Assembly (NCBI RefSeq): GCF_022846435.1
Contig: NZ_AP025627.1
Coordinates: 2,700,001-2,764,000, forward strand
Source of the DNA: Parageobacillus sp. KH3-4
GTDB lineage: Bacteria > Bacillota > Bacilli > Bacillales > Anoxybacillaceae
Length of the DNA stretch: 64,000 nucleotides
Reading direction: 5' to 3'
Shown here piece after piece: positions 9,329 to 32,452 of the stretch. Position numbers and translations under genes: made by a program. The first letter of the stretch is position 1. Every line of letters begins with the position of its first letter. A model generated the notes under the pieces. That model was not told where the DNA came from. It saw only the letters and a program-made list of their open reading frames with translations, and did not search any database.

Positions 9329-9344
9329 GTCTTTCCCTCCCATC

Positions 9345-9379
9345 AGGAGATGCTGAATCGTCAGTTTTCAGTATCTCCT
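9345..9379 (-). repeat. Inverted repeat between the sigG promoter and ribosome site
   Basis: Arms 9345-9357 and 9367-9379 match at 12 of 13 positions, with a 9-base loop. The 5' arm on the minus strand contains the putative SigF -10 element, while the 3' arm ends five bases before the GGGAGG ribosome site. RNA started upstream of sigE would contain both arms, whereas RNA started at the sigG promoter would lack nearly all of the 5' arm. A stem-loop of this kind has been reported at B. subtilis sigG. Confidence 0.8.
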
Positions 9380-9397
9380 CTGGAAGAAAAAATATGC
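9369..9397 (-). promoter_or_regulatory. Putative SigF/SigG promoter of sigG
   Basis: On the minus strand GCATA (9397-9393) is followed after 14 bp by GGAGATACTG (9378-9369). This fits the forespore consensus of GYATA at -35 and GGnnAnnnT at -10. The spacing to the TTG start (about 35 nt leader) is compatible. Confidence 0.7.
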
Positions 9398-9414
9398 ACG
9401 CTTGTCTAAAGCAC

Positions 9415-9445
9415 ATAAAAAACGGCAATGAAGCCATCGCCGTTA
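9415..9445 (-). terminator. Terminator after sigE
   Basis: AACGGCGATG pairs with CATTGCCGTT on the minus strand (9444-9421), followed by a T-run. It would limit spoIIG transcription from entering sigG. Confidence 0.85.
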
Positions 9446-9448
9446 TTT

Positions 9449-23387: not shown

Positions 23388-23433
23388 GAAAAAAGGGGCG
23401 AGATATAGATGACAACCTACACTAGCCGCCCCT
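23388..23433 (-). terminator. Terminator after spoVD
   Basis: AGGGGCG and CGCCCCT form a stem on the minus strand (arms 23433-23427 and 23400-23394, long loop), followed by TTTTTT. Confidence 0.75.
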
Positions 23434-23439
23434 CGAAAT

Positions 23440-25374
23440 TTATTCGCCTTCTTTCTCTGCCTTTGCTGCTAAATAAATGCGAATGGTCGAACCTTCTTTT
23501 ACTTTCACTCCAGGTTTTGGAGCTTGCTCAATAACAACGTCACCTTCTCCACTAACATCTAATTTTAAGTTAAAAAGTTGCTCTTGCAAGTCTTTTTTCG
23601 ATAAGCCGATTAAATCCGGCACTTCGATCATTTTCGGATCATTCCATTCTCTCTCTTTTTCTATTTGATCTTTCCTTGGTTTGACGCCAAGCACGCGCAA
23701 ACTGTCTTCCATAATTTTTCCAACGATTGGGGCGGAGACGACGCCGCCAAACTGCACCGTTCCTTTCGGATTGTCGACAGCAACATAAACAACAAGCTGC
23801 GGGTCATCCGCCGGAGCAAAGCCGATAAATGAAACGATATGGTTGTCTTTTAAATATCGGCCATCTTTCGCTTTTTGCGCCGTTCCCGTTTTTCCGCCGA
23901 CGCGATACCCTTCGACATAGGCACCTTTTCCTGTTCCTTGAGCAACGACGCTCTCTAGAGCATAGCGAACTTGTTTGGACGTTTCCTCGGAAATAACGCG
24001 ACGCTTCGCCTTTGGCGTATTGCGGATTACCACCTTTCCTGTCTCAGGGTCAACCCATTGTTTCGCGATATATGGCGTATACAAAATTCCGCCATTGACC
24101 GCCGCAGAAACAGCGGCAACCTGCTGAATCGGCGTCACCGACACCCCTTGACCGAAGGCCGTTGTCGCTTGTTCAACAGGCCCAACACGTTTCAAATCAA
24201 ATAAAATTCCGGTTCCTTCCCCTTGCAGATCAATTCCTGTTTTTTCACCAAAGCCGAACTGTTTTATATAATAAAATAGCTTTTCTTTTCCAAGCCGCTC
24301 CCCGAGCTCGACAAAACCCGGATTGCACGAATTTTGCACAACTTCTAAAAAGGTTTGCGATCCATGCCCGCCTTTTTTCCAGCAGCGCAACGTAGCACCG
24401 GCCACTTTTACATATCCTGGATCATAAAAATGATCTTTCAATAAGTCGACTTTTTTTTCTTCCAACGCTGCGGCAAGCGTGATAATTTTAAACGTCGAAC
24501 CAGGCTCATACGTGCTCCAAACCGGCAAGTTACGATTGTAGATTTCCGGCGGCACATTCCGATAATTTGCCGGGTCAAACGTCGGGCGGCTCGCCATCGC
24601 CAAAATTTCTCCCGTATTCGGGTTCATTGCGATCGCAATTATGCCGTCTGGATTGTACTTTGCTTCGGCAATATCAAGCTCCCGCTCCACGATCGTTTGG
24701 ATGCGCGAATCAATCGTAAGCATCAAATCTAATCCGTCTGTCGGTGGCGTATATTCGTCCGTCATATTCGGCATTCTTTTTCCTTTCGCATCCGAATAAA
24801 ATTGCACCGAACCGCGCTGGCCGCTCAATTCCTTATCGTAGTAAAGCTCCAGCCCCGTCAAACCTTGATTATCGATGCCGGTAAATCCTAAGACGTGTGA
24901 CAAATAACTACCGAACGGATAATAACGTTTTGTATCTTCCGCGATATATACCCCTTTTAGGCCGAGCGCCCGAATTTCTTTTGCTTTTTCATTCGATATT
25001 TTTCGCCCTTCCGGAATGCGTTCGATGGAGGTTTTTTTCGTAATGCGTTTGTACGCCTTTTCCACGGGCATATTTAATACTTTCGCCAATTTTTCCGCTG
25101 TTTCCACCGGGTTTTCAATTTGGCGCGGAATGACGTATACGGTTGGAGCGCTCATGTTTGTGGCGAGCGGAACGCCGTTGCGGTCCAAAATTTCCCCTCG
25201 TTTCGGTTCAAACGGAATGTTTCTGCTCCATGAATCTTTCGCCCGTTCCGTTAACATATCCCCTATCAGCAATTGAACATATCCGAGGCGAATGTCAATA
25301 ATGGCAAAAATGAGCACTCCAACGAGAAACACGATCATCAGCCGTTTGCGGACAGTGACGTGAGAAGCGCGCAT
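23440..25374 (-). CDS. spoVD: Sporulation-specific penicillin-binding protein SpoVD
   Basis: 644-residue class B PBP for spore cortex. N-terminal membrane anchor (LMIVFLVGVLIFAIIDIRLGYVQ), PBP dimerisation domain, transpeptidase motifs EPGSTFKI (SxxK, about 294), SCN (QNSCNPGF) and KTGTAQK, and one C-terminal PASTA domain (IEVPDLIGLSKKDLQEQLF...), which distinguishes it from PbpB's two. Expressed in the mother cell with SpoVE. The ATG is part of the 3' arm of a perfect 14-bp inverted repeat (separate entry). Confidence 0.96.
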   Translation of the reverse strand: MRASHVTVRKRLMIVFLVGVLIFAIIDIRLGYVQLLIGDMLTERAKDSWSRNIPFEPKRGEILDRNGVPLATNMSAPTVYVIPRQIENPVETAEKLAKVLNMPVEKAYKRITKKTSIERIPEGRKISNEKAKEIRALGLKGVYIAEDTKRYYPFGSYLSHVLGFTGIDNQGLTGLELYYDKELSGQRGSVQFYSDAKGKRMPNMTDEYTPPTDGLDLMLTIDSRIQTIVERELDIAEAKYNPDGIIAIAMNPNTGEILAMASRPTFDPANYRNVPPEIYNRNLPVWSTYEPGSTFKIITLAAALEEKKVDLLKDHFYDPGYVKVAGATLRCWKKGGHGSQTFLEVVQNSCNPGFVELGERLGKEKLFYYIKQFGFGEKTGIDLQGEGTGILFDLKRVGPVEQATTAFGQGVSVTPIQQVAAVSAAVNGGILYTPYIAKQWVDPETGKVVIRNTPKAKRRVISEETSKQVRYALESVVAQGTGKGAYVEGYRVGGKTGTAQKAKDGRYLKDNHIVSFIGFAPADDPQLVVYVAVDNPKGTVQFGGVVSAPIVGKIMEDSLRVLGVKPRKDQIEKEREWNDPKMIEVPDLIGLSKKDLQEQLFNLKLDVSGEGDVVIEQAPKPGVKVKEGSTIRIYLAAKAEKEGE

Positions 25375-25438
25375 ATAGTGGAACCTCCTTTTATGAGATA
25401 GGCTCGTTCCACTATATGCTTGTACGTTTCATTATAGA
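25371..25438 (-). promoter_or_regulatory. Putative SigE promoter and 14-bp inverted repeat covering the spoVD start codon
   Basis: Perfect inverted repeat: plus-strand arms GCATATAGTGGAAC (25371-25384) and GTTCCACTATATGC (25406-25419), with a 21-base loop holding the AAGGAGG ribosome site. The spoVD ATG (25374-25372) is inside the 3' arm. On the minus strand TCTATAAT (25438-25431) and CATATAGT (25418-25411) with 12 bp between resemble SigE -35 and -10 elements, the -10 coinciding with the 5' arm. Transcription would begin near 25404, after the 5' arm. Confidence 0.7.
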
Positions 25439-25448
25439 ACGTCCTGAA

Positions 25449-27659
25449 TCACTCAACTGGGCCATCGTTTTTCTTCCTTGAAGCTTCCTTTTGTTCTTGT
25501 TCCATTCTTTCCTGCCATTTTCTCGGTTCTTCCAGCTCTACAATTAAGTAATCTCCTTTCTTTACTGACGCGCCTGGTCGAATATTTTGGCTGACGACAT
25601 ACCCATTTCCTTTTGTGCTCGGACGAAGCTCTAGCAGTTCCGCTACTTTCATCACATCGCGCAGCGACCAGCCTCGCACGTCCGGCATCACTGTTTTTCC
25701 ATTTGTTTTTAGCATCACCCGTTCTCCAGCAATGGCCGTATCGCCGGATATTGGTATATGATCTTCAATCTGCTGTCCATCTCCGATTACAACCGGAACA
25801 AGCCCTTTTTCCTTTAATTCTTTTACTGCTTCTTCTGTTGAACGGCCTGCATAGGAACCAATTTTAATTCCTTCCGTTTTAGTTTTTGGCGTTTTCTGCT
25901 CGGAAGAAGGTTGAATATGCAAATATTGCAGGCTATTTTTCATGACGCTAGTAAAAATATGAGAAACAGGTGCTGATCCTGTCTCTGTATAAGACAGTTT
26001 TGGCTGCTGGACAGCGACATACATAATTAAGCGTGGATCTTCTTTCGGGGCCATTCCTAAAAAAGAAAAAATATAGTTTTGATAGCCGGTTAAATACCCT
26101 CCGTTTGGCGACGGAATTTGCGCCGTTCCTGTTTTTCCGGCGACCCGATACCCTTCGATTTGGTACGGACGCCCCGTTCCTTTTTCCGAAGTAACGACCG
26201 TTTCCAATATATCTAGCACTTTTTGCGCCGTTTCTTTTGTAATCGGCTGCTCCACTACTTCCGGTTCATTTTTTACAATAACTTTTTTTGTATCTGGATC
26301 GACGATGCGATCGATAACATATGGCTTCATCATTTTTCCGCCGTTTGCGATCGCAGTTGCCGCTTGAATTTGCTGGATTGGTGTCACCGATGTTCCTTGG
26401 CCGAACCCTGTCGTTATTCTTTCAATCGGATATTTATAGTGAATTTGTCCTACCGCTTCTCCCGGAAGATCTATCCCTGTTTTCCGATCAAAATGGAAAC
26501 GATGCAAATATTGCAAAAAGCGGTCTTCTCCCAATTTTTCCTTTACTAAAATCGAAAAAGCGACATTGGAAGAGCGTTGTACGCCTTCATTAAACGTAAT
26601 CGTTCCCCAGCCTACTTTGTTATGGTCGCGAATAATATTTTGCCCCACTTTATAATAGCCAGACCGATATCGCTCATTCCCGTTATACACACCTTCGTTG
26701 ATGGCAGCAGCAAGCGTAAAAATTTTCATTGTCGATCCTGGTTCATACGGATAGGAAATCGCGTCGTTGAAATAGTTTTGTATATTGCGTTTATTCGGGT
26801 CAAAGCTCGGCCTTGTCGCCATCGCCAAAATTTTTCCCGTTTTCGGATCTGCCACAATCGCGATCATTTTTTTCGGCTTATATCGTTTTTCGACGTCATT
26901 CATCGCGTCTTCCAAAAACGTTTGTATTTTTTGATCGATCGTTAAATAAACATTCGCTCCATTATCCGGCGGAACGACGGTTTCTTTCGAATTTGGAAGG
27001 CGAAATCCGCTCACGTCCCCGGCGAAAGACACATAACCGTCTTTTTCGCGCAAATATTTATCTAAGCTTTTTTCAATCCCCATTTTTCCGACTGTTTTAT
27101 TTTTGTCCTCTTTTTGCGCATAGCCAATGACGTACGAAGCAAAATCACCGTTCGGATAAAACCGTTTTGTATCACGAATAAAACCGATCCCTGGCAAATT
27201 TAACGCTTCAATTTTTTCTTTCAATTCATAGCTAATGTTTCGTCCGTTCGCGCCAAATTCCACTTGCTTTGCATCTTTTGTTAAAATTCGTTTTACTTCG
27301 TCCACATCCATTTTAAGCAATGGAGCTAATTTTTTGGCCGTCTTTTCGGGATCAACGACATGCCTTGGATGGTCAGGATCTGTCGTCATTTTCGGATCAA
27401 GAACGGCCACCACCGAATAAGATGGCACGTCTTGGGCAAGCACTTCGCCATTTCGGTCAAAAATGGTTCCGCGCTTTGCTTCGATGGTGCGCTTTTGCTT
27501 ATACTTTTCTTCCGCCTTTACCGCTAACACCTGGCCATCGGCAACGCCTGTTACCTGCAGCTGAATAAAACGAGCAAATAACACAAAAAAGAGCAGACTG
27601 AACAGGAAAAATAATATAGCTGCTCCTTTATTCGTGTTGCTATGCTTTTTCTTTTCCAT
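25449..27659 (-). CDS. pbpB: Penicillin-binding protein 2B (septal transpeptidase, FtsI)
   Basis: 736-residue class B PBP essential for septal peptidoglycan cross-linking with FtsW. Membrane anchor (AAILFFLFSLLFFVLFARFI), dimerisation domain (EAKRGTIFDRNGEVLAQD), transpeptidase motifs EPGSTMKIF (SxxK), SSN (QRSSNVAFS) and KTGTAQIP, then two PASTA domains (about 600-725). The start at ATG 27659 is preferred to the in-frame TTG at 27665, which is too close to the AGGA site; both lie just past the ftsL stop. spoVD follows after 74 bases. Confidence 0.95.
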   Translation of the reverse strand: MEKKKHSNTNKGAAILFFLFSLLFFVLFARFIQLQVTGVADGQVLAVKAEEKYKQKRTIEAKRGTIFDRNGEVLAQDVPSYSVVAVLDPKMTTDPDHPRHVVDPEKTAKKLAPLLKMDVDEVKRILTKDAKQVEFGANGRNISYELKEKIEALNLPGIGFIRDTKRFYPNGDFASYVIGYAQKEDKNKTVGKMGIEKSLDKYLREKDGYVSFAGDVSGFRLPNSKETVVPPDNGANVYLTIDQKIQTFLEDAMNDVEKRYKPKKMIAIVADPKTGKILAMATRPSFDPNKRNIQNYFNDAISYPYEPGSTMKIFTLAAAINEGVYNGNERYRSGYYKVGQNIIRDHNKVGWGTITFNEGVQRSSNVAFSILVKEKLGEDRFLQYLHRFHFDRKTGIDLPGEAVGQIHYKYPIERITTGFGQGTSVTPIQQIQAATAIANGGKMMKPYVIDRIVDPDTKKVIVKNEPEVVEQPITKETAQKVLDILETVVTSEKGTGRPYQIEGYRVAGKTGTAQIPSPNGGYLTGYQNYIFSFLGMAPKEDPRLIMYVAVQQPKLSYTETGSAPVSHIFTSVMKNSLQYLHIQPSSEQKTPKTKTEGIKIGSYAGRSTEEAVKELKEKGLVPVVIGDGQQIEDHIPISGDTAIAGERVMLKTNGKTVMPDVRGWSLRDVMKVAELLELRPSTKGNGYVVSQNIRPGASVKKGDYLIVELEEPRKWQERMEQEQKEASRKKNDGPVE

Positions 27660-27665
27660 CGTCAA

Positions 27666-32417: not shown

Positions 32418-32452
32418 AAAAAGGCTGACCTTATATATTAGGTCAGCCTTTT
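32418..32452 (-). terminator. Terminator after gerR
   Basis: GGCTGACCT and AGGTCAGCC form a stem (about 32425-32450) followed on the minus strand by TTTTTTC, overlapping the gerR stop. Confidence 0.85.

Follow-up and report, generated by a model that had tools for sequence, protein, structure and literature searches.

The window analyzed here, a stretch of 64,000 nucleotides from Parageobacillus sp. KH3-4, carries on its minus strand a dcw cluster comprising rsmH, ftsL, a pbpB-type penicillin-binding protein (PBP) gene, spoVD, and murE (Table 1). The name pbpB is given from the position of the gene behind ftsL. Between pbpB and spoVD there are 74 nucleotides, across which the order in the mRNA is GTTCTA, nine nucleotides, the conserved block GTACAAGCATATAGTGGAACGAGCC, the Shine–Dalgarno (SD) sequence, a spacer, and the ATG.

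Table 1. Features of the pbpB–spoVD–murE region and the sigG comparison element (window coordinates).
Feature	Position	Strand	Remarks
Large hairpin over the sigG ribosome site, comparison element	9330..9395 (approximate)	−	
Terminator-like hairpin with T-run between spoVD and murE	23389..23434	−	By eye
spoVD, sporulation-specific penicillin-binding protein	23440..25374	−	TIGR02214, 894.6 bits vs. cut-off 688
Hairpin 3′ arm, GTTCCACTATATGC	25371..25384	−	Spans the SD–AUG spacer, the ATG of spoVD, and a single nucleotide of codon 2
spoVD start codon, ATG	25372..25374	−	Within the 3′ arm
Shine–Dalgarno, AAAGGAGG	25384..25391	−	Sequence; the 3′ arm begins with its last G
Hairpin loop, 21 nt	25385..25405	−	Includes most of the Shine–Dalgarno
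Conserved block GTACAAGCATATAGTGGAACGAGCC, putative promoter and perhaps SpoIIID operator	25401..25425	−	First 22 nt invariant in the family
Inferred SigE transcription start	25404	−	About 7 nt past the −10
Hairpin 5′ arm (mRNA sense), GCATATAGTGGAAC	25406..25419	−	Contains the SigE-like −10; invariant in 29/29 distinct family sequences
SigE-like −10, CATATAGT	25411..25418	−	CATA conserved at 1.00 to two decimals (family-balanced) across the 29 block-bearing families
GTTCTA block at −35 distance	25435..25440	−	Conserved 0.79–0.93 per base, family-balanced
pbpB-type division PBP gene, expected source of read-through	25449..27665	−	PBP by family search

The inverted repeat and the putative promoter

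A preliminary description of this DNA reported a perfect 14-bp inverted repeat with the spoVD ATG in its 3′ arm, and both points are borne out, the arms being complementary at 14/14 positions and 21 nt apart. The SigE-like −10 that it placed in the 5′ arm is found there as CATATAGT, whereas the ribosome site, said to lie in the loop, does so only up to its last G, which belongs to the 3′ arm. CATATAGT is called SigE-like by its likeness to the −10 of the SigE consensus; the GTTCTA block deviates from the −35 element of that consensus. The position of this conserved −10-like box implies that the 5′ arm would lie upstream of spoVD's own transcription start.

Within the home family, conservation reaches the expected start site: positions 25404–25425, a run of 22 nt which includes the 5′ arm, are identical in all 29 distinct sequences, and this should exceed what a SigE promoter alone needs. 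The −10 lies between two blocks of similar sequence, ACAAGC and ACGAGC; these may be SpoIIID sites, and two such sites would perhaps explain the additional conservation. A duty of this kind at the DNA level would account for the frozen 5′ arm, and constitutes the main rival to an explanation at the level of RNA. PMC517825 reports that SpoIIID is enriched at spoVD and that the gene is repressed, and cites work in the title of which two SpoIIID sites of the spoVD promoter are named.

Predicted folding of the read-through RNA and its conservation in the family

In 60 Markov-1 copies of the window, perfect 14-nt arms separated by a loop of 40 nt or less occur on average 0.017 times per copy. The window itself contains six overlapping 14-mer hits, distributed over four places including spoVD. 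Further perfect inverted repeats of at least 12 bases with short loops, perhaps terminators, are found at 32419, 33952, 39324, 42116, 44368, 45396, 45964, 59845, and 62767. The spoVD hairpin is not an intrinsic terminator, its 3′ arm being followed by GCGCTTCTCACG instead of a T-run, and it is not listed by the promoter/terminator scanner. A search of positions 25200–25600 with the Rfam covariance models returned no matches up to an E value of 1.

A 110-nt RNA from this site has a folding z-score of −4.35, with none of 200 shuffles as stable, and the stem covers the start codon in the predicted folds of read-through RNA. Of 69 genes tested in the window, spoVD is the one with the longest ungapped start-occluding stem (14, followed by 12), and its start is also the least accessible (0.11; median, 0.40). 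At 37 °C the modeled unpaired probability is 0.47 for the SD and 0.00 for the AUG. At 60 °C, where the model is extrapolated in temperature, the hairpin has an energy of −12.2 kcal/mol and the AUG is unpaired in 1% of the long RNA vs. 69% of the RNA beginning at 25404. Since the SD is modeled as about half free in both RNAs, a translational lock would act more on the AUG and the spacer than on the SD. An RNA thermometer would also have the region of the ribosome site within a structure, but the modeled unpaired probability of the AUG stays at 0.00–0.04 from 37 to 75 °C, and on these energies we reject this explanation as scarcely credible.

The region was found in all 41 of the family genomes searched. 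The 3′ arm forms 14 Watson–Crick pairs in five of them and 14 pairs including G–U in 12; in 17 there is one mismatch, in five the pairs are kept with a bulge, and in two the pairing is weaker. The minimum free energy structure of the read-through RNA nevertheless contains 11–14 arm pairs, with all three bases of the AUG paired, in 41/41. Absence of the repeat from relatives had been named as evidence against the preliminary reading; what is found is that the pairing is retained throughout the family. The compensatory changes that were to be sought in relatives are seen only between families: among the 29 distinct sequences of this one there is no covariation at the 5′ arm, because that arm never varies. 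Variant spacers were on average more stable than spacers carrying the same number of random substitutions (10/14 lower, p = 0.008), a comparison among related sequences in which each indel is scored as multiple substitutions; four of the 14 entries, representing two distinct spacers, were no more stable than the mutated controls.

This distribution also bears on the idea that the repeat functions as a DNA palindrome bound by a protein. The palindrome is perfect in the window, but only the five genomes with Watson–Crick pairing throughout share that perfection, and the RNA pairing is kept better; the G–U changes break the symmetry of the DNA and keep the RNA pairs. We therefore reject a DNA palindrome as very improbable.

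The 5′ arm starts at least 20 nt past the pbpB stop codon in the family genomes (the 352 nt obtained for L037 is probably a frame artefact). The footprint of a terminating ribosome does not extend as far as this arm, so ribosomes ending translation of pbpB should not melt the hairpin.

Promoter and start pairing across the order

The search of the order covered 299 genomes, 286 of which had SpoVD, and 118 genomes of other families, among the best matches listed, were used; the sample is without some of the near-duplicates listed and without whole families of lower scores. From 16 named loci only L181 entered the tests, while L185, L186, L188, and 12 loci resembling home-family genomes already included were left out. 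The promoter block, defined as at least 15 of 25 matches, lies ahead of spoVD in 149/160 genomes vs. 5/160 shuffled upstream regions; the 11 genomes with a weak match, L181 among them, were excluded from later tests. The main swap test comprised 200 sequences after removal of weak or truncated entries and duplicates. Extra genomes of families f44, f47, f22, and f43 had been added as interesting-looking, so that the genus counts lean towards these, whereas the family count weights each family once; genera inside one family are not independent.

With the pairing fixed in the 14-bp register of the window, the swap test was null (13/29 families, p = 0.79); the exact register is lineage-specific and is not conserved across the order. 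With the register free, a genome's own promoter paired better with its own start than did swapped promoters in 57/73 genera (p = 2e-8), in 48/64 when the home family was removed (p = 2e-6), and in 22/29 families (p = 0.002); an earlier run with fewer genomes gave 19/29 families (p = 0.009). Own promoters also outperformed shuffled ones, in 57/73 genera and in 18/29 families (p = 0.019). Within a lineage, then, the promoter is matched to the start region. The preliminary reading is partly supported: the pairing is retained in relatives and is matched within lineages, but the exact 14-bp register is not an order-wide feature.

The position of the signal was examined by genus, with control windows counted in nucleotides. 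Neither the promoter against nucleotides 35–60 of the gene (p = 0.46) nor the promoter against the pbpB side (p = 0.73) gave a signal, while the promoter against nucleotides 9–34 gave p = 0.002, and pairing of the start region with sequence lying upstream of the promoter p = 0.039. The −35 side alone gave p = 0.12, and the part from the −10 to the start site, taken by itself, p = 1e-7. Around the inferred start, the sequence beat swapped pairing in 48/65 genera (p = 1e-5); SigE RNA would keep part of this stretch and may not be fully free in some lineages. Start accessibility was below that obtained with swapped promoters in 20/29 families (p = 0.005) and with shuffled promoters in 19/29 (p = 0.013), an effect absent on either control in f4, f6, f9, f20, f27, f28, f31, and f46. 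In 122/149 genomes, though not in all, accessibility was lower for the long RNA than for the short one.

The pairing signal peaks at the ribosome-binding site and start region and declines towards the interior of the gene. This argues against a hairpin whose chief role would be to tag the polycistronic mRNA for processing, or to shield its spoVD-proximal end from decay, with the hiding of the start as a secondary matter. A long stem between two cistrons, its fold z-score, and its pairing in the family would all suit such a role, to which we assign a small probability.

A more serious alternative is that the 5′ arm is fixed as promoter and SpoIIID operator DNA, and that the start resembles its complement by chance and through AT-richness. 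The invariance of the arm in the family and its high conservation in the order, the SpoIIID enrichment and repression cited above, and the null result in the fixed register are all congruent with such a by-product. The swapped promoters, however, are real promoters under the same constraint, and they pair worse in those 57 genera; in addition, changes in the 3′ arm tend to preserve pairing, and in f44, f22, and f47 matching starts go with changed promoters. On balance we regard the by-product as unlikely.

Examples of the pairing in individual lineages were picked by eye, a choice of which the swap tests are independent. In f44, GCATATATTGGAAC pairs with GTTCTAATATATGC, where a G–C pair has become U–A through changes on both sides relative to the window, and f22/g63 combines the 5′ arm of f44 with GTTCTGATATATGC. 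The arm of f22/g30 (GAAACGAACA with TGTTCGTTTC) reaches beyond the inferred start; measured on the promoter alone, it shows almost no gain. Family f47 has ATGAACGAGCC with GGTTCGTTCAT, ACATGAACG with CGTTCATGT, and TTTGAATG with CATTCAAA. In these three families the matching starts accompany changed promoters. In f43/g51, which has TTG starts, CCGTTC or TCGTTC of the −35 block pairs with GAACGG ahead of the start. A 12-bp complementarity between the −35 region and sequence upstream of the ribosome site was also seen by eye in L151 (f6), which has a long leader.

Terminators and the possible insulation of spoVD

In none of 32 distinct home-family sequences did the stretch from pbpB to the promoter contain a terminator-like site of −10 kcal/mol or better, and read-through into spoVD is therefore to be expected. 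The promoter/terminator scanner, a different detector from the one used for this count, lists no terminator in the pbpB–spoVD gap of the window; its silence carries little weight because it also missed the hairpin between spoVD and murE. The latter, terminator-like and recognized by eye, is present in 30/30 loci (L193–L222, the window's own genome included) examined in a survey that matched 39/41 family genomes. It weakens the proposition that murE depends on transcripts running on past spoVD; the gene would require a promoter of its own or leaky termination. A 2007 operon survey (PMC1808063) counts against a read-through lock, classing pbpB–spoVD in B. subtilis among the non-operon pairs.

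Strong terminators between pbpB and spoVD, missing in the home family, occur in many other lineages (e.g., L056, L144, L168, L258, and L305). Over all 200 sequences a terminator between pbpB and the promoter is found in 36.5%, vs. 3% of resampled regions. The median pairing gain was −0.8 kcal/mol in the 29 genera with a terminator and −2.6 kcal/mol in the 44 without (p = 0.003; p = 0.056 when the home family is removed). The direction of this contrast agrees in five of the six families containing both kinds, f21 barely so, and terminator and pairing show a rank correlation of −0.27 at the genus level (p = 0.022) and of −0.18 at the family level (p = 0.34, not significant). This suggests, without proving, that terminator and hairpin are two alternative insulators. 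Genus f43/g51, which is B. subtilis-like, has both; f20, f26, f28, f46, and most of f16 have, by these measures, neither strong pairing nor a terminator.

From these data we probably have to do with a selected lock that silences read-through mRNA. The repeat itself, its folding at growth temperature, the conservation of pairing in the family, and the order-wide matching of promoter and start are computed. Messenger RNA entering spoVD from pbpB would carry both arms, fold, and hide the start codon, leaving the cortex PBP untranslated during growth. In the mother cell, SigE polymerase would start near 25404, inside the loop, and produce an mRNA in which the start is exposed for want of the 5′ arm. 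The start site, the read-through in growth, and the block to translation are steps that we infer. Only tentatively would we extend the lock to the Bacillales as a whole, with the spoVD promoter doubling as the antisense of its own start and silencing achieved by either a terminator or an anti-start hairpin, the letters of which turn over. As part of this broader proposal, the 5′ arm would be drawn from the −10 in the Geobacillus family, f44, and f22/g63, from the −35 in f43/g51, and from the boundary of the −10 and start site in f47 and f22/g30.

The window contains a further case for comparison. Positions 9330–9448 hold a terminator-like hairpin after sigE followed by a large hairpin over the sigG ribosome site, of the kind described for B. 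subtilis, and the start accessibility of sigG (0.17) is the fifth lowest of the 69 genes. For B. subtilis, PMC5942855 relates the proposal, with reference to its refs 9 and 52, that the large hairpin keeps read-through RNA from being translated, and states that this hairpin does not form in RNA from the gene's own promoter. It also describes a small hairpin in the sigG leader, where occlusion of the ribosome-binding site dampens translation, by a measured 2–4-fold; such occlusion would be common to the spoVD hairpin, but the small hairpin forms in the gene's own transcript, as that of spoVD should not. On its predicted anatomy and its conservation, the spoVD hairpin would be one that works like the large sigG (spoIIIG) hairpin, which likewise concerns a sporulation gene behind another operon. 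The two differ in gene, sigma factor, and compartment, and spoVD is distinguished by a 5′ arm that holds a −10-like box, an AUG in the stem, and upstream genes that serve vegetative cell division. Late genes of phage T4 such as e (lysozyme) are alike in that a promoter inside the hairpin frees the ribosome site: early read-through RNA hides this site and the late promoter exposes it, although this is a phage system with a sequence unrelated to that of spoVD. Judged by titles and the beginnings of abstracts, no description of the spoVD hairpin was found in the literature, where an earlier mention is possible, nor was any paper found to combine spoVD, hairpin, translation, and pbpB. The passages on spoVD in PMC3906833 contain none of the words "hairpin," "pbpB," or "transcript."

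The proposed lock offers a testable reason why the gene for a cortex PBP can lie behind that for a division PBP without its product being made during growth, and spoVD becomes, after sigG, the second sporulation gene that is a candidate for insulation through RNA folding. With arms that turn over and a function that seems to be kept, such locks in other developmental genes situated inside vegetative operons would escape a search by ordinary sequence conservation.
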